Source of the DNA: Arthrobacter citreus
Lineage (GTDB): Bacteria; Bacillota; Bacilli; Bacillales; Bacillaceae_G
Length of the DNA stretch: 64,000 nt
Assembly: GCA_013200995.1 (NCBI GenBank)
Contig: CP053688.1
Coordinates: forward strand, 4,650,001-4,714,000
Reading direction: 5' to 3'
How positions within the stretch are numbered: the first letter of the stretch is position 1; every line of letters begins with the position of its first letter. Shown piece after piece: positions 10,773 to 17,931 of the stretch. The translations under genes were made by a program, and so were the position numbers. Below the pieces are notes generated by a model. That model did not search any database, was not told the origin of the DNA, and was given only the letters and a program-made list of their open reading frames with translations.

Positions 10773-11906
10773 ATGAATAAACACTATGAAGTAATCATTG
10801 TTGGAGCAGGTTCGATGGGAATGGCAGCAGGATACTATTTATCAAAAAGAAATCAAAATACACTATTAATAGATGCTTTTGATCCACCACATAGCTTCGG
10901 TAGCCACCATGGAGATACAAGAATCATTCGCCATGCATACGGTGAAAGTAGAGAATACGTACCATTAGCATTACGGGCACAAAAGTTATGGGAAGAGTTA
11001 GAACAAATTTCAGGAAGAAAATTATTTTCCAAAACAGGAGTTTTATGCGCAGGAGCACCCGGTTCTACCTTTACACAAGAAGTAAAAAAAAGTGCAGAAG
11101 AATTTTCGTTGCCACTAGAAATACTAGATGGCAGTGAGATAAATGCTAGATGGCCTGGTATGAATTTGCCAGAAGGGTTTATAGGCTGCTTAGAAACATC
11201 GTCAGGAATTCTTTTTAGTGAGGATTGTATTAGAGCATATAAGGAGTTATATATCCAGGAAGGAAATACGCTTAAAACAAACACGCCTGTTATGGATATT
11301 GAAATCGATTCAAATATAGCCATTGTACGTACAGAGGATGCTATATACACAGCAGATAAACTTGTCGTCTGTGCAGGTGCTTGGTCTGGGAAAATACTTG
11401 AAAAGACTGGCGTACATATTCCGCTAAAGCCTATCCGTAAAACAGTTGGTTGGTTTGAATGCGATAAAAAGCTTTATGATTCTAATTCGCTACCAGCATT
11501 CACGATTGATCTAATTGATGAGCACTACTACGGTTTCCCGAATCTTCATAACAGCGGACTGAAAATTGGACGACATGATGGAGGGCATAGTGTGGATCCA
11601 AATCAATTTAACAGGGAATTCGGGGAATACAAAGAAGATGAGGCTGACTTACGAAGTTTTTTAAGTCAGTATATGCCAAAAGCCAATGGCAAACTATTAA
11701 AAGGGAAAACATGCTTATACACAATGACTCCAGACGAGCATTTTATCATTGATCAGCATCCTGAAAATAAAAATATAATCATTGCGACAGGCTTCTCTGG
11801 ACACGGCTTTAAATTTGCAAGCGCCGTAGGAGAACTCATCGCTGACCTAGTAACAAAACAAAAATCAGCCTTTGATTTGAGCATGTTTTCTTTAAATCGT
11901 TTTTGA
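10773..11906 (+). CDS. solA: Monomeric sarcosine oxidase / N-methyl-L-tryptophan oxidase family flavoenzyme
   Basis: A 377-residue FAD oxidase. The dinucleotide-binding motif VGAGSMGMAAGYYLSKRN is at residues 9-26, followed by the MSOX-family hallmarks SHHGDTRIIRHAYGE (covalent flavin environment) and CLYTMTPDEHFIIDQHP, with ATGFSGHGFKFA at the C-terminus. Enzymes of this family demethylate secondary N-methyl amino acids to give formaldehyde and hydrogen peroxide; sarcosine and N-methyltryptophan cannot be told apart here. The gene stands alone with its own terminator. Its closeness to the MIO-less lyase operon could mean shared use of methylated amines, but that is only conjecture. Confidence 0.87.
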   Translation: MNKHYEVIIVGAGSMGMAAGYYLSKRNQNTLLIDAFDPPHSFGSHHGDTRIIRHAYGESREYVPLALRAQKLWEELEQISGRKLFSKTGVLCAGAPGSTFTQEVKKSAEEFSLPLEILDGSEINARWPGMNLPEGFIGCLETSSGILFSEDCIRAYKELYIQEGNTLKTNTPVMDIEIDSNIAIVRTEDAIYTADKLVVCAGAWSGKILEKTGVHIPLKPIRKTVGWFECDKKLYDSNSLPAFTIDLIDEHYYGFPNLHNSGLKIGRHDGGHSVDPNQFNREFGEYKEDEADLRSFLSQYMPKANGKLLKGKTCLYTMTPDEHFIIDQHPENKNIIIATGFSGHGFKFASAVGELIADLVTKQKSAFDLSMFSLNRF

Positions 11907-11931
11907 GATAGCTAATGGGCTATCTCTTTAT
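11905..11931 (+). terminator. Terminator after solA
   Basis: GAGATAGC / GCTATCTC stem with a 6-nt loop, overlapping the stop codon, followed by a short T-rich tract. Confidence 0.8.
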
Positions 11932-11968
11932 ATATTGAACAGGTTAATATTACGAGGTCGGGGGAAGT

Positions 11969-12022
11969 GCAAATAAATATGGCAAAACTGCAATAAAAAA
12001 TTGCAAAACGGCAAATAAGTCT
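11969..12022 (+). repeat. Family B 21-bp phased repeat, three units
   Basis: Units beginning GCAAATAAA / GCAATAAAA / GCAAATAAG start at 11969, 11990 and 12011, exactly 21 bp apart. The same motif and period recur at 51903-52076. It lies 36 bp past the solA terminator. Confidence 0.75.
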
Positions 12023-12180
12023 ATGAATCACGTTGAAAAGGAGTGAGAGAAAGGCAATAAAGCTAATTGATCAGCAACCTTAACAATGTAAATACTAATA
12101 AAATCTCAAAAAGTCTGCTGATTAATCATCAAAAAATGATCTGTCCTTTAAATCATTATTGCTAACATATTTTAATGACA

Positions 12181-12480
12181 AAGAACTCCGCAATATCAAC
12201 AAAGGTCCACGTTAGATCAACGAAGAACTCCGCAATATGAACAAAGCTCCACGTAAGATCAACGAAGAACTCCGCAATATGAACAAAGGTCCACGTTAGA
12301 TCAACGAAGAACTCCGCAATATCAACAAAGGTCCACGTTAGATCAACGAAGAACTCTTCTATATCAACAAAAACTCACGATATATCAACAAAAAATCCAA
12401 TTATATCAACAAAAACTCCAATTATATCAACAAAAACTCCAACTATATCAACAAATTTCACAACTTTATCAACAAACTTC
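12181..12480 (+). repeat. Family A repeat: 4 x 42 bp followed by degenerate 21-bp units
   Basis: Four nearly identical 42-bp units start at 12181, 12223, 12265 and 12307 (each AAGAACTCCGCAATAT plus a half ending GATCAACG). From 12349 they turn into about six 21-bp units ending TATATCAAC. The 42-bp unit is thus a dimer of the 21-bp unit. An inverted copy of the same family sits at 27848-27945. The remainder of the 11,932-12,830 gap is AT-rich with no gene. Confidence 0.9.
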
Positions 12481-12732
12481 AAAAAGTGTTCGTATTTTCT
12501 AAAATTGACTAAGCTATATTTCAACACGATCAGAACTAAGAATGCTGTTTCATAGTTCTGATTGTACACGAAATATCAATCTATTAAATTTCCCCTATGC
12601 CCATAGCCTATATCCAGCTACCTAAACAGACCCATAAGCCAATTTCAGCAATATTGTGCTAGTAATCCGAAACTTTATCTAGAGATAATTTTATGAGTAA
12701 TTATTATAATTTATTAAATATAAAGAATATTT

Positions 12733-12746
12733 TGTAAGCGCTTTAT
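12733..12746 (+). promoter_or_regulatory. Possible cre (CcpA) site upstream of the transporter/lyase operon
   Basis: TGTAAGCGCTTTAT matches 12 of 14 positions of the cre consensus TGWAANCGNTNWCA; the final two bases differ. It lies 23 bp after a TATAAT at 12705-12710 and 85 bp upstream of the TTG start, a position suited to roadblock repression. It suggests catabolite control but is not proof. Confidence 0.4.
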
Positions 12747-12830
12747 GAACATAAAGTAAGTAGTTATTTATTACTTACTATTTTTTAAAACTTAAATTTT
12801 ATCTAAATAGCTAAATAAGGGGGTATTTTT

Positions 12831-14198
12831 TTGAAGGAAAAAACATTTATGATGGATGATGCACCGCTTAATAAATTTCATATTCGGATTACTGCGCTAA
12901 CGTTTGGATCGAATTTTTCAGACGGCTATGCGTTAGGAATTATAGGCATGGCACTTTCGCTACTTGGCCCACAAATGAAGTTAAATTCAGTTTGGGAAGG
13001 GTTAATCGGTAGTTCTGCTTTAATCGGACTTTTTTTCGGTAGTTTGTTTTTAGGCGGATTATCAGATCGCATTGGTAGGCAGAAAATATATTTAGCAAAC
13101 TTTGTAATTATTACAATCGCATCAGCCCTGCAGTTTTTTGTTCACGATCCATATACGCTATTTGCATTAAGGATATTAATAGGTGTAGCACTTGGTGGGG
13201 ATTATGCTGTAGGATCAACTTTACTAGCAGAGTTTGCACCTAGAAAGTATAGAGGGATGTTATTATCTTCATTAAACGTATTATGGACAGTAGGATATGT
13301 AGCCTCAAATCTAGTAGGCTATTACTTAGAAAAAACGGGTCCAGACGCATGGCGTTGGATGCTAGTAAGTGCTGCACTCCCTGGTTTGATTGTCTTACTG
13401 TTACGTTTTGGTACTCCGGAGTCACCACTTTGGTTATTAAAAATGGGTCGTGTTGAAGAAGCACGTGCCATCGTTCGGAAGTATATTGGTGAAAATGCTA
13501 TAATGGATGAAACAGTTGGTACTCATTCTAAACAAGCATACAAAGTTACGGATTTATTCAATAAACAACTTTGGAAACGTACGACATTCGGATCGCTTTT
13601 TTATATGTGTCAAGTAGTTCCTTATTTTGCAATTTATACGTTTCTACCAACTATTTTAAGTAAACTGGGATTTGAAGAAACATTTGGTGTGGATATGGTA
13701 CTGAACTTGTTCCTTTTAGTAGGGGCGGTTGCTGGTGTTTGGTGCACTGAAAAATTAACTCGTAGAGGATTTACAATTAATACATTTATTATTTTAACGA
13801 TTTCATTATTTGCTTTAACAGTATTACCGCCAGGACTACATACAATCGCAATCATTGTCTTTGCAATCTTTACTTTTGTAATGTCTGCAGCATCTAATTT
13901 AACGTTAGTTTATCCTGCTGAATTATTTCCTACAGAGGTTCGTGGAACTGGAGTTGGATTGACAACAGCAGTTAGTCGAATTGGGTCAGCTATTGGGACT
14001 TTCTTATTACCTATAAGTGTTAGTTCAATGGGAATGGCGCCTTCAATGATTGGTATGTCTATCATTTTATTTATAGGTACGATTGTTTCAATAGCTTGGG
14101 CTCCAGAAACAAAATCACTATCATTAAATGAAGCTAGTAATCCTTTACTTGAAGAGGATTTAATTGAAACGAATAAACAATCAGTATCGATCCATTAA
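12831..14198 (+). CDS. MFS transporter, sugar-porter/aromatic-acid type
   Basis: A 455-residue, 12-helix major facilitator permease. The loop 2-3 signature GGLSDRIGRQKIYLAN is seen near residue 82, with the repeated porter motif YPAELFPTEVRGTGVG in the second half and the PESPLWLL-like TPESPLWLLKMGR after helix 6, features of the sugar porter/NiaP/aromatic-acid symporter branch. The TTG start at 12831 is spaced seven bases from GGGGG; an ATG at 12849 is an alternative. It is 32 bp upstream of the lyase gene and almost certainly cotranscribed, so it probably imports that enzyme's substrate. Confidence 0.85.
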   Translation: MKEKTFMMDDAPLNKFHIRITALTFGSNFSDGYALGIIGMALSLLGPQMKLNSVWEGLIGSSALIGLFFGSLFLGGLSDRIGRQKIYLANFVIITIASALQFFVHDPYTLFALRILIGVALGGDYAVGSTLLAEFAPRKYRGMLLSSLNVLWTVGYVASNLVGYYLEKTGPDAWRWMLVSAALPGLIVLLLRFGTPESPLWLLKMGRVEEARAIVRKYIGENAIMDETVGTHSKQAYKVTDLFNKQLWKRTTFGSLFYMCQVVPYFAIYTFLPTILSKLGFEETFGVDMVLNLFLLVGAVAGVWCTEKLTRRGFTINTFIILTISLFALTVLPPGLHTIAIIVFAIFTFVMSAASNLTLVYPAELFPTEVRGTGVGLTTAVSRIGSAIGTFLLPISVSSMGMAPSMIGMSIILFIGTIVSIAWAPETKSLSLNEASNPLLEEDLIETNKQSVSIH

Positions 14199-14230
14199 AC
14201 AAAGATATTCATTATTAAGAGGTGTAAGTG

Positions 14231-15790
14231 ATGGCCAAGAACGATTTTATTCATCCAAAAAATATTAAAGAGGTTATTCTTGGAGATCATGAGTTGTCGA
14301 TAAACGAAGTGATTGCAGTTGCAAGATATGGAGCAAAAGTATCATTCACAAAAAACTACATTCTTAGAATAAAACATTCTCGTAATTTAATTGAAAAGTT
14401 TCTTGAAGAAGAACGAGCAGTTTATGGAGTAACTACTGGCTTTGGAAGCAATGTTACAGAAGTGATTTCTAAGGAAGATGCACATACTCTTCAACGTAAT
14501 ATCGTCCGATCTCATGCTGTTTCTGTAGGGGAGCCACTTGAAAAAGAAGTAGTAAGAGCTATTCAATTAATGATTTTAAATAATATAGGACATGGCTATT
14601 CAGGAGTTCGAATAGAAGTTTTAGAGTTAATTGCTTCACTGCTGAACAATGATATATTGCCTTTTGTTCCTGGTGATGGTTCAGTTGCATACTTATCTCC
14701 TGAGGCACATATGGCATTAGTTTTAATGGGTGAAGGAAAAGCATGGTATAAAGGCGAGCTACTAAGTGGCATTGAGGCATTAGAGCGGGCTGAACTAAAG
14801 CCAGTAACTTTTGAATGCAAAGAAGGATTAGCACTTTTAAGTGGTACTACTTCAGTAACGGCATTTGCAATACTATCTAACTATAATGCAATTCAAGCTG
14901 TAAAAACAGCAGATGTCGCGGGAGCCTTGTCATTAGAAGCACTTAAAGGTACGATAAATGCTTTAGATCCGCGTCTTCACTCGGTAAAAAAACATAAAGA
15001 ACAAGCAAATACTGCTCGAATCATTTCTATGATTTTAAATGATAGTGAGATTGCAGAGCAGTATAAAGACTATCGATTACAAGATGCACTTAGTTTAAGA
15101 TGTATACCACAAGTTCATGGTGCAGTTAAAAAAGTATTTAAAAATACTTTGGAAAATATAAAAAATGAAATGATTTCTTCAAGTGATAATCCGATTATAT
15201 GGCCGGAGGAAGAAGACGGCATTGCATTAATGGGCGGGAATTTTGACGCCTCTTATATAGGGATTGATGCAGATACGATGTGTATAGCAATGGCAAATCT
15301 AGCCAAAATTACAGAGCGTCGTATCGATCGACTAGTAAATTATCATGTAAGTGAACTTCCAAGTTTTTTAGTTGCCAATCCGGGTTTAAACAGTGGCTAT
15401 ATGATTCCACAATATACTGTGGCGGGGCTACTTAATGAAATAAGAGTTCTTTCGCATCCTGCAACAATTGATAATACACCTACATGTGCTAACCAAGAAG
15501 ATGTTGTTAGCTTTGCTTATTATGCTGCTAGAAAAGCATATCAGATTTCTAAAAAACTTGAGCATATTTTAGCAATCGAGTTGATGGTTGCGTCTCAGGC
15601 TCTAGATTTCCATGATGCATTTAAACCATCACCAGTAACGGCAAGTATTCACGAGTTAATTAGAAATCAAGTTCCAACAGTCGAAGAGGACCGATATTTT
15701 TATTCGGATATCGAGACAATTTGTCATCTGATTCATGAAGGTGAAATTATTTCACTTGTTGAAGAGAGAATAGGCGTCATGGAATTATGA
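14231..15790 (+). CDS. Aromatic amino acid ammonia-lyase superfamily protein lacking the MIO motif
   Basis: A 519-residue homologue of histidine/phenylalanine ammonia-lyase. Retained family features: VYGVTTGFGSNV with the catalytic tyrosine, RSHAVSVGEP, GHGYSGVRIEVL, SSSDNPIIW and CANQEDVVSF. The loop that in HutH reads GSLGASGDLAPLAH and forms the MIO electrophile is here GSVAYLSPEAH (residues 150-160): three residues shorter, with no Ala-Ser-Gly. It should therefore be unable to make MIO. The one MIO-free member I recall is ergothionase, which eliminates trimethylamine, an already good leaving group, from ergothioneine; this protein is a candidate for that or another betaine lyase. The ATG at 14231 follows AGAGGTG. 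It is cotranscribed with the MFS gene. Confidence 0.8.
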   Translation: MAKNDFIHPKNIKEVILGDHELSINEVIAVARYGAKVSFTKNYILRIKHSRNLIEKFLEEERAVYGVTTGFGSNVTEVISKEDAHTLQRNIVRSHAVSVGEPLEKEVVRAIQLMILNNIGHGYSGVRIEVLELIASLLNNDILPFVPGDGSVAYLSPEAHMALVLMGEGKAWYKGELLSGIEALERAELKPVTFECKEGLALLSGTTSVTAFAILSNYNAIQAVKTADVAGALSLEALKGTINALDPRLHSVKKHKEQANTARIISMILNDSEIAEQYKDYRLQDALSLRCIPQVHGAVKKVFKNTLENIKNEMISSSDNPIIWPEEEDGIALMGGNFDASYIGIDADTMCIAMANLAKITERRIDRLVNYHVSELPSFLVANPGLNSGYMIPQYTVAGLLNEIRVLSHPATIDNTPTCANQEDVVSFAYYAARKAYQISKKLEHILAIELMVASQALDFHDAFKPSPVTASIHELIRNQVPTVEEDRYFYSDIETICHLIHEGEIISLVEERIGVMEL

Positions 15791-15797
15791 AAATGTT

Positions 15798-15839
15798 AAA
15801 GAAGCAGTTATACTCTAGAGTACAACTGCTTCTTTTTTT
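15798..15839 (+). terminator. Terminator after the lyase gene
   Basis: AAGAAGCAGTT / AACTGCTTCTT with inner TACTCTAGAGTA palindrome, then seven T residues. It ends the MFS-lyase operon; the AraC gene that follows has its own start signals. Confidence 0.93.
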
Positions 15840-15915
15840 GATTTATTCAAAGTTTAAATTTACTAACAATCACTCAACTAAGACACTAAAAAATAGTTAA
15901 AAAAGGAGAATTAAG

Positions 15916-17133
15916 ATGAATCGAAATGCCACACAATCAGCTTTTTCAAATTTGTTACTCTCTGGCACACTTGTCCATGTAGGGACTTTTGATGAGGTTC
16001 AAAAAAGATGTGGCGTTAATACTTGTCCGAATGTTGTAATGGTGATTTCTATCGATCGTTATCCTGATTTAGTATTAGAAAGCCCAGTGCAATGGAAAAA
16101 AGATATTGGCCATAAGCTCATTAATCAACTTGAGAAAACGATAGAAGTTCCTTATTTATGGAATTGGATAGAAGAAGGGGTAATTGCTCTTTTAATTGAA
16201 CTTGAAGAGAATGATAGTGAGTTAGAATTCAATAAAAAGATTTTTAGTATGGCAGAAGCTATTCAAAATTCGTTAGAATCTATTCAGATTACGGTTTCTA
16301 TTGGTATTGGTAAAAAATACAGTGATCCGCATCTTTTATTCCATTCATTTGAAGAGGCAAGAAAATCGATGTCAGGTCGTTTTTTCCAAGGGAACAAGCT
16401 GATTTTTCATAGTGGAATTAGACCTGTGGAGGAAAATAGATTAAGGTCACTTTCAACCGAAGATCGAATTGAATTACTAGCACTTGTTCGAATGGGTGAC
16501 GAAGATGGGGTCGTAAAACAGTTAAATACATTTCTTGATAAAGTAGCGAATGCATGTAGATTAAATGAAGATGTATTTAAGACTGAAGTAGTCGATTTAA
16601 TCATGTTAATATCAAGAGTTGTTGTAGAGTCCGGGGTGAGTGCAACACTCATAATGTCCAAAAATGCACAAATAATTCAAGAGCTGTATCATATTATTCG
16701 TTATGATAAATTCGTGAAAAAAGTTTGTGAATATGCGTATTGGTTAACAGTCCAAATATTTAACTCCTTTAATAATCAAATGACACCGATTATTAAAAAA
16801 GCAACAAAATATATTATGGAAAATCATCAATCAAGTATCACGCTTGAGGAAATTGCACAATATTGTTGTTTAAGTAAGTATCATTTCAGTCATCTGTTCA
16901 AAAAAGAAATTGGAACAAGTGTAATCGATTTCTTAAATAGACTTAGAATCGAAAAATCGATTTTTTATTTAGAAATGACTGATTTAAACATGCAAGAAAT
17001 TGCGACCCGAATTGGTTTTCAAGATTCAAATTACTTTAGTCGTATATTTAAAAAATATATAAAAAGTAGCCCTACAGAATACAGGGCTACTAAATATCCA
17101 CATTTATTAGGACAGGGCGTAGGGGATACATGA
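15916..17133 (+). CDS. AraC family transcriptional regulator with N-terminal CdaR/GGDEF-like domain
   Basis: A 405-residue regulator. Residues ~35-170 resemble the degenerate GGDEF-like domain of PucR/CdaR regulators (VMVISIDRYPDL at the start, ITVSIGIGKKYSDPHLLFHSFEEAR near its end). The C-terminal ~100 residues are an AraC double helix-turn-helix: ITLEEIAQYCCLSKYHFSHLFK and MQEIATRIGFQDSNYFSRIFKK. GGAG precedes the ATG. It lies 75 bp after the terminator of the MFS-lyase operon and is the likely regulator of that operon; I infer this from position only. Confidence 0.83.
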   Translation: MNRNATQSAFSNLLLSGTLVHVGTFDEVQKRCGVNTCPNVVMVISIDRYPDLVLESPVQWKKDIGHKLINQLEKTIEVPYLWNWIEEGVIALLIELEENDSELEFNKKIFSMAEAIQNSLESIQITVSIGIGKKYSDPHLLFHSFEEARKSMSGRFFQGNKLIFHSGIRPVEENRLRSLSTEDRIELLALVRMGDEDGVVKQLNTFLDKVANACRLNEDVFKTEVVDLIMLISRVVVESGVSATLIMSKNAQIIQELYHIIRYDKFVKKVCEYAYWLTVQIFNSFNNQMTPIIKKATKYIMENHQSSITLEEIAQYCCLSKYHFSHLFKKEIGTSVIDFLNRLRIEKSIFYLEMTDLNMQEIATRIGFQDSNYFSRIFKKYIKSSPTEYRATKYPHLLGQGVGDT

Positions 17134-17157
17134 GGGCAAAGAGATTGCCCTTCCCGA

Positions 17158-17931
17158 TTAGTCCTGTCTTTCTAGTCTTGAAGCATAAGGGTAGAGTGGA
17201 TCTAATAATTGGAATTCATATGTAATTCCATCAACCTTTCCTACTACCTTTTCACTGTCATACAGGTCCAACATGAAACCAGCCATTTCTTTGGCAGTAT
17301 GATATTTTGGTAGAACGCCCTCAAATTTGATATTTTCTTCTAAATCATATGATACTTTCGCAAATTCCGTTTCAGTGGCTGCAGGTGCTAAAACTTTTGC
17401 TTTCATTTTTGCACCTTGCTCTTTTAATTCATGGGCAAGTCCTTCTGTAAAAGCACTAACATAAAATTTAGTTGCGCAATATGTGATGGCATTTCCAATA
17501 ATCGTGTATCCACCACCTGATGAAATATTAATTACTTGTGTGCCTTCAACTGTTGAATAATCACGTACATATAGTGAAGTTAAAATCGTTAAGGATTCAA
17601 TATTCAAATTAAGCATGTTCTCAATCTTTGATAAATTTTGTTCTCCAACTGATGCAAAATTACCAAAGCCTGCGTTATTAATCCAAGTTTCAATTTGATA
17701 TTCTTTAAGCCCTTCATATAACTCATACGTGTTTTTAACAACAGACAAATCAGCGGTTTTAATGACAACATCGAGATCAGCATTTAATTTTACGATTTCA
17801 GATTTTAACTTTTCAAGCTCTTCCGTTCTACGTGCAACAACGATTAAATTTTTACCACGAGCAGCGAATGCAAGTGCCGATTCATATCCAATTCCTGAAC
17901 TCGCTCCTGTAATAACAGTATATTTTTTCAT
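17158..17931 (-). CDS. Short-chain dehydrogenase/reductase
   Basis: A 257-residue Rossmann-fold oxidoreductase with the cofactor motif TGASSGIG at residues 8-15, NNAG near residue 86 and the catalytic S-Y-K set with YCATK near residue 150. A basic residue pair after beta-strand 2 (VVARRTEEL) favours NADPH. The substrate is unknown. GAGGAGG precedes the ATG. It is divergent from a MerR-type regulator, and the promoter between them has the 19-bp spacer expected of MerR control, so the enzyme is probably induced by a reactive small molecule such as an aldehyde or quinone. Confidence 0.88.
   Translation of the reverse strand: MKKYTVITGASSGIGYESALAFAARGKNLIVVARRTEELEKLKSEIVKLNADLDVVIKTADLSVVKNTYELYEGLKEYQIETWINNAGFGNFASVGEQNLSKIENMLNLNIESLTILTSLYVRDYSTVEGTQVINISSGGGYTIIGNAITYCATKFYVSAFTEGLAHELKEQGAKMKAKVLAPAATETEFAKVSYDLEENIKFEGVLPKYHTAKEMAGFMLDLYDSEKVVGKVDGITYEFQLLDPLYPYASRLERQD

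Follow-up and report, generated by a model that had tools for sequence, protein, structure and literature searches.

The lyase gene and its lost cofactor triad

We analyzed a 64,000-nucleotide stretch of Arthrobacter citreus DNA (assembly GCA_013200995.1, contig CP053688.1, positions 4,650,001 to 4,714,000; hereafter, the window), with the focus on a gene for a lyase of the histidine/phenylalanine ammonia-lyase (HAL/PAL) family that lacks the Ala-Ser-Gly (ASG) triad forming the cofactor 4-methylideneimidazole-5-one (MIO). The gene lies next to a permease gene of the major facilitator superfamily (MFS), and this pair is flanked by genes for a flavoenzyme and for a likely local regulator. The genome measures 5.47 Mb, and the nearest relatives of the lyase come from Bacillus sp. 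AFS017336 and from Gottfriedia strains, including Gottfriedia acidiceleris. In window coordinates, the features of the permease-lyase pair are the following:

12831..14198, + strand: MFS permease (Pfam Sugar_tr, MFS_1), directly 5' of the lyase gene; predicted substrate uptake
14228..15790, + strand: MIO-free lyase of the HAL/PAL family (PF00221), start GTG 14228 or ATG 14231
14678..14695, + strand: GSVAYL codons (G151-L156), site of the absent Ala-Ser-Gly
15089..15091, + strand: Leu288 codon, at the position of the catalytic Tyr of HAL
15245..15247, + strand: Asp340 codon (His in HutH, Glu in the ergothionase type)
15305..15307, + strand: Lys360 codon (Asn in most HutH, Lys in the ergothionase type)

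The open reading frame has 520 amino acids from the GTG (519 from the ATG at 14231) and reads PFVPGDGSVAYLSPEAHMALVLM. The segment GSVAYLSPEAH occupies residues 151-161 in the GTG count (150-160 in the ATG count), where histidine ammonia-lyases read GS(L/V)GASGDLAP.AH. In the HMMER alignment, the GSVAYL motif was placed on the MIO loop of Pseudomonas putida HutH, with a gap against part of ASGD, and inspection of the whole translated protein by eye revealed no ASG that would restore the triad elsewhere. A search of a 5.8-billion-protein collection matched 7891 proteins, the best 120 of which were aligned (59-97% identity); ASG is absent from the motif site in all 120, the variants being GSVGYL, GSVAYL, GS(V/I)GGL and one GSVA-L. 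This consistency rules out sequencing error or recent decay. Thus, the absence of the tripeptide, pointed out in a preliminary description of this DNA, was confirmed, and the lyase cannot form MIO because Ala-Ser-Gly is missing from its place. The same description regarded the rest of the family signature as intact, which holds for the named motifs (YGVTTGFG, GYSGVR, SSDNPIIW and QEDVVS are all found) and not for the active-site residues, two of which, out of eight, are changed (see below).

The lyase matches PF00221 with 558 bits and passes the curated HutH model TIGR01225 narrowly (543 over 539.15), which probably explains the HutH name given by annotation pipelines. The names that sources give to the listed homologues with this kind of loop (hereafter, GYL lyases) are mostly histidine ammonia-lyase, otherwise HAL/PAL/TAL or aromatic amino acid ammonia-lyase. 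We conclude that the variant is real and conserved, and that it is probably mis-named in databases. It should be noted that the genome keeps its own canonical ASG HutH, in the hut operon at C1:1.29 Mb.

Sampling of 398 genomes from the class of the window gave at least 14 GYL-type loci, in 14 genomes, with that of the window included. The 14 best-scoring of the 30 best-match loci in this sample have GSVGYL, GSVAYL or GSLGYL, and the other 15 classified loci have ASG; locus L128 (a partial frame) is counted in neither class. Among 274 genomes from the class of Pseudomonas GM18, where best matches only were considered, 18 of the 19 new best-match loci (all but L207) were classified and all 18 have ASG. 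Plasmid matches comprised 895 and 856 records, and of the three places fetched, one (L216) is a GYL lyase. For a 49-residue query directed at a solved structure of the GYL type, the matches were MIO-type family entries only.

Descent and active-site residues

Ergothionase, a member of the same superfamily, is likewise MIO-free; it has been described as a trimethylamine lyase without MIO that converts ergothioneine to thiourocanic acid (PMC13405746). We used the Treponema denticola enzyme (6s7j/6s7q) as the ergothionase reference. When the lyase was compared to 39 distinct PDB sequences, HutH came first with 349.5 bits, whereas the T. denticola ergothionase ranked 17 with 172.6 bits. The Clostridium mobile open reading frame L157, in contrast, is an ergothionase relative (524 bits to ergothionase, loop GEGDI). 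GEGDI and GYL are different changes of the MIO loop.

Phylogenetic trees of 86, 85 and 52 rows were built from rows chosen by hand from the collected lyase open reading frames (186 in a like run) and six proteins; L041, L044 and L045 were lost at frame picking and are outside the trees, being assigned to the clade-A type by motif and score alone. The GYL lyases form one clade (37 rows, support of 99 in the Shimodaira-Hasegawa-like approximate likelihood ratio test; 21 rows, 100/98, with the diagnostic columns removed), and the GEGDI lyases form another, apart from it (10 rows, support 100; 7 rows, 100/100). The GYL group splits in two, clade A, which includes the window lyase, and clade B, which is largely hut-linked. 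As for the other two plasmid places, pSymA of Sinorhizobium meliloti carries an ergothionase-type lyase (L215:7929-9569) with the loop GQADM, which matches the profile of the GEGDI clade with 477 bits, and a Polaromonas plasmid match (L214), 40.9% identical to the L157 protein, was left unclassified.

Eight active-site residues, including Asn194 and Tyr277, are named for the characterized HAL of G. kaustophilus (PMC11432326). Six of the eight are kept in the lyase (Y66, H96, Q285, R291, F339 and E424), and two are altered, Asn194 to S205 and Tyr277 to L288. With reference to HutH (P. putida 1b8f and Thermoplasma acidophilum 7tqr), which has the triad, the lyase differs at four positions: Asn is replaced by Ser205, Tyr by Leu288, His by Asp340 and Asn by Lys360. 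The Leu288 site is presumably that of Tyr280 in P. putida HutH; Leu or Ile occupies it in 14/16 clade-A rows, and Tyr in 24/24 ASG rows. Position 340 is Asp in 16/16 clade-A rows, His in 23/24 ASG rows and Glu in 7/7 ergothionase-type rows, and position 360 is Lys in 15/16, Asn in 21/24 and Lys in 6/7, respectively. The change of Asn at position 205 is not general, since Asn is retained in 7 of the 16 clade-A rows, and Phe339 is found in just 10 of them; Tyr66, His96, Arg291 and Glu424 are present in all 16. Clade B is HutH-like at two of these positions, with His at the Asp340 site in 5/5 rows and Asn at the Lys360 site in 4/5.

Position 396 distinguishes clade A from the ergothionase type: it is Tyr in 16/16 clade-A rows and Lys in 7/7 ergothionase-type rows (sequence index 383 of 6s7j). 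The preliminary description had likened the lyase to ergothionase in particular; alignment to ergothionase and HutH bore out the altered loop and most HAL residues, whereas a particular kinship with the T. denticola type was not upheld, given the bit scores, the separate clade and Tyr396 in place of the Lys of the ergothionase clade. In structure comparison, HAL, tyrosine aminomutase and ergothionase fall within about 3 Z units, so that the substrate is not settled by it.

Transcription units, neighboring genes and a second HutU/HutI set

The other features of the locus are the following:

10773..11906, + strand: flavin adenine dinucleotide-dependent N-methyl-amine oxidase of the monomeric sarcosine oxidase/N-methyltryptophan oxidase family (475.9 bits to 1zov)
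11905..11926, + strand: weak terminator-like hairpin 3' of the oxidase gene, which would split it from the permease-lyase unit
15798..15835, + strand: hairpin and T run 3' of the lyase gene (-18.3 kcal/mol), likely intrinsic terminator
15916..17133, + strand: GGDEF_2-like and AraC-type regulator, likely local (HTH_18 72 bits, HTH_AraC 66, GGDEF_2 30.5)

The end of the permease gene and the GTG of the lyase gene are 29 bases apart on a common strand, so the two are likely to share one transcript, in agreement with the preliminary description. The regulator is adjacent, but its cotranscription with the pair is doubtful: the hairpin at 15798-15835 is more stable than expected (z -5.66; 0/200 shuffles equally stable; missed by the consensus terminator scan), and the AraC-type gene is probably outside the permease-lyase transcript because this strong hairpin intervenes. 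The consensus scan found three terminator-like sites in 11850-17200 compared to 2.5 expected in shuffles, so the hairpin at 11905-11926 is weak. Oxidase and regulator are probably separate transcription units. Between the oxidase and permease genes there is a tandem array (12178-12455) with a 42-base unit, AAGAACTCCGCAATATCAACAAAGGTCCACGTTAGATCAACG, and 93% matches over 12181-12371. The catabolite-responsive element (cre) of the preliminary description is at chance level: using what we take to be the cre consensus, there is a match with two mismatches at 12733, and the window contains 72 such matches versus 79.8 expected from shuffles. We therefore rejected the site as regulatory evidence.

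The permease matches Sugar_tr with 209 bits and MFS_1 with 134; its best NCBIfam models, TIGR00895 (183.8, cut-off 418.55) and TIGR00898 (172.1), are both below cut-off. The flavoenzyme, passed over in the preliminary description together with the second HutU/HutI set described below, is a full-length relative of the monomeric sarcosine and N-methyltryptophan oxidases (PRK11259, 458.6 over a cut-off of 257; soxA_mon, 424.6 under 479.65), and differs from them in keeping company with a MIO-free lyase.

Using tblastn with fixed reference proteins, we compared gene neighborhoods in 40 locus entries, 36 of them distinct (L187=L033, L170=L045, L171=L041 and L161=L042): 30 of the clade-A type and six of clade B (L156, L169 and L182-L185), with the window's own locus excluded from the counts. 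The reference proteins were taken from the window, L174, L035, L182, L183, L060 and L040, and some of the matches in those loci are thus built in. Some genomes contain two loci (L035 and L169; L042 and L162; L039 and L156), and L039 stops 0.6 kb past its lyase, so its neighborhood is mostly one-sided.

An MFS permease homologue lies beside the lyase in 19/30 clade-A-type loci, a BCCT homologue in 7/30 (and in 2/6 clade-B loci) and an SSS carrier in 1/30. Genes for urocanase and imidazolonepropionase (HutU, HutI) accompany the lyase in 11 of the 30 clade-A-type loci, with formimidoylglutamase (HutG) in five of these 11; four of the six clade-B loci have HutU, HutI and HutG, two of these four with BCCT and two with an OsmF-like binding protein. 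The flavoenzyme homologue is found in 13/30 clade-A-type loci in three arrangements: it precedes the permease in Gottfriedia, Bacillus OV166 and Fictibacillus, follows the lyase in the Peribacillus group and follows the regulator in L178 and L179. Regulator homologues within the fetched stretches are present in L034, L174-L176, L178, L179 and five other distinct Gottfriedia loci.

Against the model for glycine betaine BCCT carriers (cut-off 650), the proteins of L182 and L040 reach 398 and 328 bits, and against the BCCT subfamily model (cut-off 407.55) they reach 357 and 307 bits; for the OsmF-like protein found in L183, the score is 156 bits (cut-off 400). These proteins are relatives of betaine carriers and putative carriers of this kind themselves. 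Three loci hold two different GYL lyases close together (L043:6180-9290, L046:7977-12932 and L060:7977-13287), and BCCT homologues or an SSS carrier stand in their vicinity. This arrangement suggests several betaine substrates; microcompartment-like genes were noticed by eye 5' of the lyases in L046. In L183 (6073-16886) and L185, a clade-B lyase shares one cluster with an OsmF-like protein and two urocanases, one divergent (51%) and one canonical-like (83%); the substrate of this candidate locus may be ergothioneine or a different modified histidine betaine. In Pseudomonas sp. GM18 (L156:3047-6250), a GYL lyase stands directly 5' of a canonical ASG HutH; this lyase may correspond to the second HutH in the hut loci of Pseudomonas.

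The L174 cluster has a canonical urocanase, with 1008 bits to 1x87, and a HutI (501.5 over 298.15) and a HutG (229.4 over 229.15) that exceed the NCBIfam cut-offs. Linked urocanases of the other clade-A-type loci are 61-99% identical to that of L174. We surveyed urocanases in 23 genomes, 22 of which have one or more: six have several matches and one has none (G433, though this genome has HutH and HutI-like genes). In nine of the 23, the sole urocanase lies inside the lyase cluster; seven of these are clade-A-type genomes (G090, G133, G217, G094, G431, G432 and G439) and two are clade-B genomes (G241, G221). In two of these nine (L173 and L174), furthermore, a canonical ASG HutH shares the cluster with the lyase. 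Because of this HutH, and because the urocanase there is the sole one, it should act on urocanate; since it should thus serve ordinary histidine breakdown, a lyase sharing it should deliver urocanate.

The window genome has a second urocanase, HutU2, at C1:5.128 Mb, together with HutI2 and a regulator (L210, G000:C1:5124000-5131000). These three proteins are 91, 86 and 67% identical to the set directly 5' of the Peribacillus permease-lyase-oxidase genes. HutU2 and HutI2 are 78 and 48% identical to HutU and HutI of the genome's own hut operon, and HutU2 is 82% identical to the L174 urocanase compared to 78% with its own hut-operon HutU. By these comparisons, it looks like one pathway was split over two places of the genome. 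Within the genus, the lyase is present in seven of 13 genomes, that of the window included, and HutU2 in all seven.

Predicted substrate and alternative explanations

A deep clade conserved in this way suggests a working enzyme, and we consider it very likely that the lyase is a MIO-free betaine lyase. An amine that is quaternary from the start would leave without the help of an electrophilic MIO. This part of the preliminary description, elimination of a quaternary amine imported by the permease, appears likely, given the MIO-free loop, the adjacent permease and the BCCT and OsmF-like proteins near relatives, whereas the suggested substrate, ergothioneine, does not. Among betaines, hercynine (histidine betaine, N,N,N-trimethyl-L-histidine) is the best match for the combination of an imidazole substrate, an amine leaving without MIO and betaine-type carriers in some relatives. 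Judging from the genes, therefore, we favor, with moderate confidence, a hercynine trimethylamine-lyase that would give urocanate.

Hercynine is the trimethylated histidine on the route to ergothioneine (PMC7653990), and the ergothioneine carrier EgtU binds it about 10,000-fold more weakly (PMC9732360); cells can thus tell ergothioneine and hercynine apart. Among the literature matches listed, which cover few subscription journals, there was no report of a hercynine lyase, and no match joined hercynine, urocanate and trimethylamine. We know of no dedicated hercynine-degrading enzyme described before.

The proposed pathway can be represented as follows. Hercynine would be imported by the MFS permease; Tyr66 would be the base that takes the beta proton at C-beta, and Arg291 would hold the carboxylate as trimethylamine leaves, in place of the ammonia released by HutH, to give urocanate. 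HutU2 and HutI2, followed by the formimidoylglutamase HutG of the hut operon, would then carry urocanate to glutamate. The predicted route thus differs from the hut operon, whose HutU, HutI and HutG genes accompany the lyase in relatives, in its entry, which would be hercynine taken up by an MFS, BCCT-type or ATP-binding cassette (ABC) carrier. The sarcosine-oxidase-like flavoenzyme may demethylate partly methylated histidine (N-methylhistidine to histidine), a guess from its family.

Several observations weigh against this interpretation. No hut gene is linked to the lyase within the window; the link comes from relatives and from paralogues 0.46 Mb away. In addition, 19/30 clade-A-type loci have no urocanase nearby, and in seven of the 23 genomes surveyed the sole urocanase lies away from the lyase cluster. 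HutU2 also occurs in three of the six genomes of the genus that have no lyase, and it is therefore not paired exclusively with the lyase. Where clade-A-type loci are linked to BCCT, hut genes are absent from the fetched stretches, and substrates may therefore differ between branches. The permease belongs to the MFS and is no known betaine carrier; the models that name it best, those of aromatic acid/H+ symporters and of cation carriers, all give scores under their cut-offs. A route that releases trimethylamine also offers no obvious role for a sarcosine-oxidase-like gene. Clade A and ergothionase have three active-site marks in common: Leu at 288, an acidic residue at 340 and Lys at 360. Finally, uniting the GYL and GEGDI lyases in one tree gained 10.4 log units over the quick free tree (approximately unbiased (AU) test, p 0.747); when fewer rows were searched with care and the diagnostic columns were dropped, uniting them cost 13.5 log units (AU p 0.159), and none of the 200 bootstrap trees united the two. 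One MIO-free ancestor of both groups is thus not rejected by these alignments, and we do not claim independent loss.

Some of these points would suit an enzyme that cleaves a different aromatic betaine (that of tyrosine, phenylalanine or tryptophan) to an arylacrylate and trimethylamine. The permease is most like aromatic acid/H+ symporters (183.8 bits, below cut-off), the oxidase exceeds the cut-off of the N-methyltryptophan oxidase model, and the family is broad, with paired GYL lyases in L043, L046 and L060, so specificities may differ. For the window enzyme we nevertheless consider this unlikely, since the hut linkage in 11/30 clade-A-type loci and the genome's own HutU2 and HutI2 fit an imidazole product; other aromatic betaines are possible substrates, above all in branches without hut genes.

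An imidazole substrate and trimethylamine release would also be expected of a second, sequence-divergent ergothionase converting ergothioneine to trimethylamine and thiourocanate, and the three common active-site marks are in line with it. The route of ergothioneine catabolism has thiourocanate hydratase in place of urocanase. The window locus itself has no urocanase, but relatives of the lyase are linked to HutI, HutG and urocanases that are canonical (L174) or 61-99% identical to the canonical one, which disfavors ergothioneine, and in nine genomes the linked urocanase is the only one. In addition, the bit score of the lyase with ergothionase is half of that with HutH, and the Lys of 7/7 ergothionase-type rows is Tyr in the window lyase. 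The genomes of L040, L042 and L044 hold both a GYL lyase and an ergothionase-type lyase, which argues for different jobs. Ergothioneine is a possible substrate that fits the gene company less well, and a divergent ergothionase appears improbable.

It is very unlikely that the lyase acts on mono- or dimethyl histidine, with the oxidase working either on this histidine or on the methylamine that is set free. The sarcosine oxidase relative (475.9 bits) in 13/30 clade-A-type loci, in three arrangements, would fit such a pathway; however, a secondary or tertiary amine is, from general chemistry, a poorer leaving group, the oxidase is absent from 17/30 loci, and the BCCT-type carriers of some relatives favor quaternary substrates. 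A HutH paralogue that has degenerated or turned regulatory and no longer catalyzes a reaction is also very unlikely: the cofactor triad and two catalytic residues are lost, and N194D by itself inactivates a HAL (PMC11432326), whereas Tyr66, His96, Arg291 and Glu424 are kept in 16/16 clade-A rows of a deep, conserved clade, and transport and catabolic genes adjoin the relatives.

If the hercynine assignment is correct, hercynine would be cleaved to trimethylamine and urocanate, which then enters the ordinary hut route, and the lyase would, to our knowledge, be the first dedicated hercynine-degrading enzyme, providing hercynine breakdown with a testable first step. It would also be an environmental source of trimethylamine besides ergothionase and choline lyase. 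MIO would then be dispensable in this family for any substrate that already bears a good leaving group, and this in enzymes that stand nearer to HutH than ergothionase does. The results indicate a naming error as well, with MIO-free lyases filed as HutH. On a wider scale, we regard it as an evenly balanced proposition that these lyases make up a widespread, previously unrecognized MIO-free family, listed under the name histidine ammonia-lyase, which would add a betaine branch to histidine catabolism, with sub-branches (those with BCCT-type or ABC carriers and paired lyases) that may handle further aromatic betaines.

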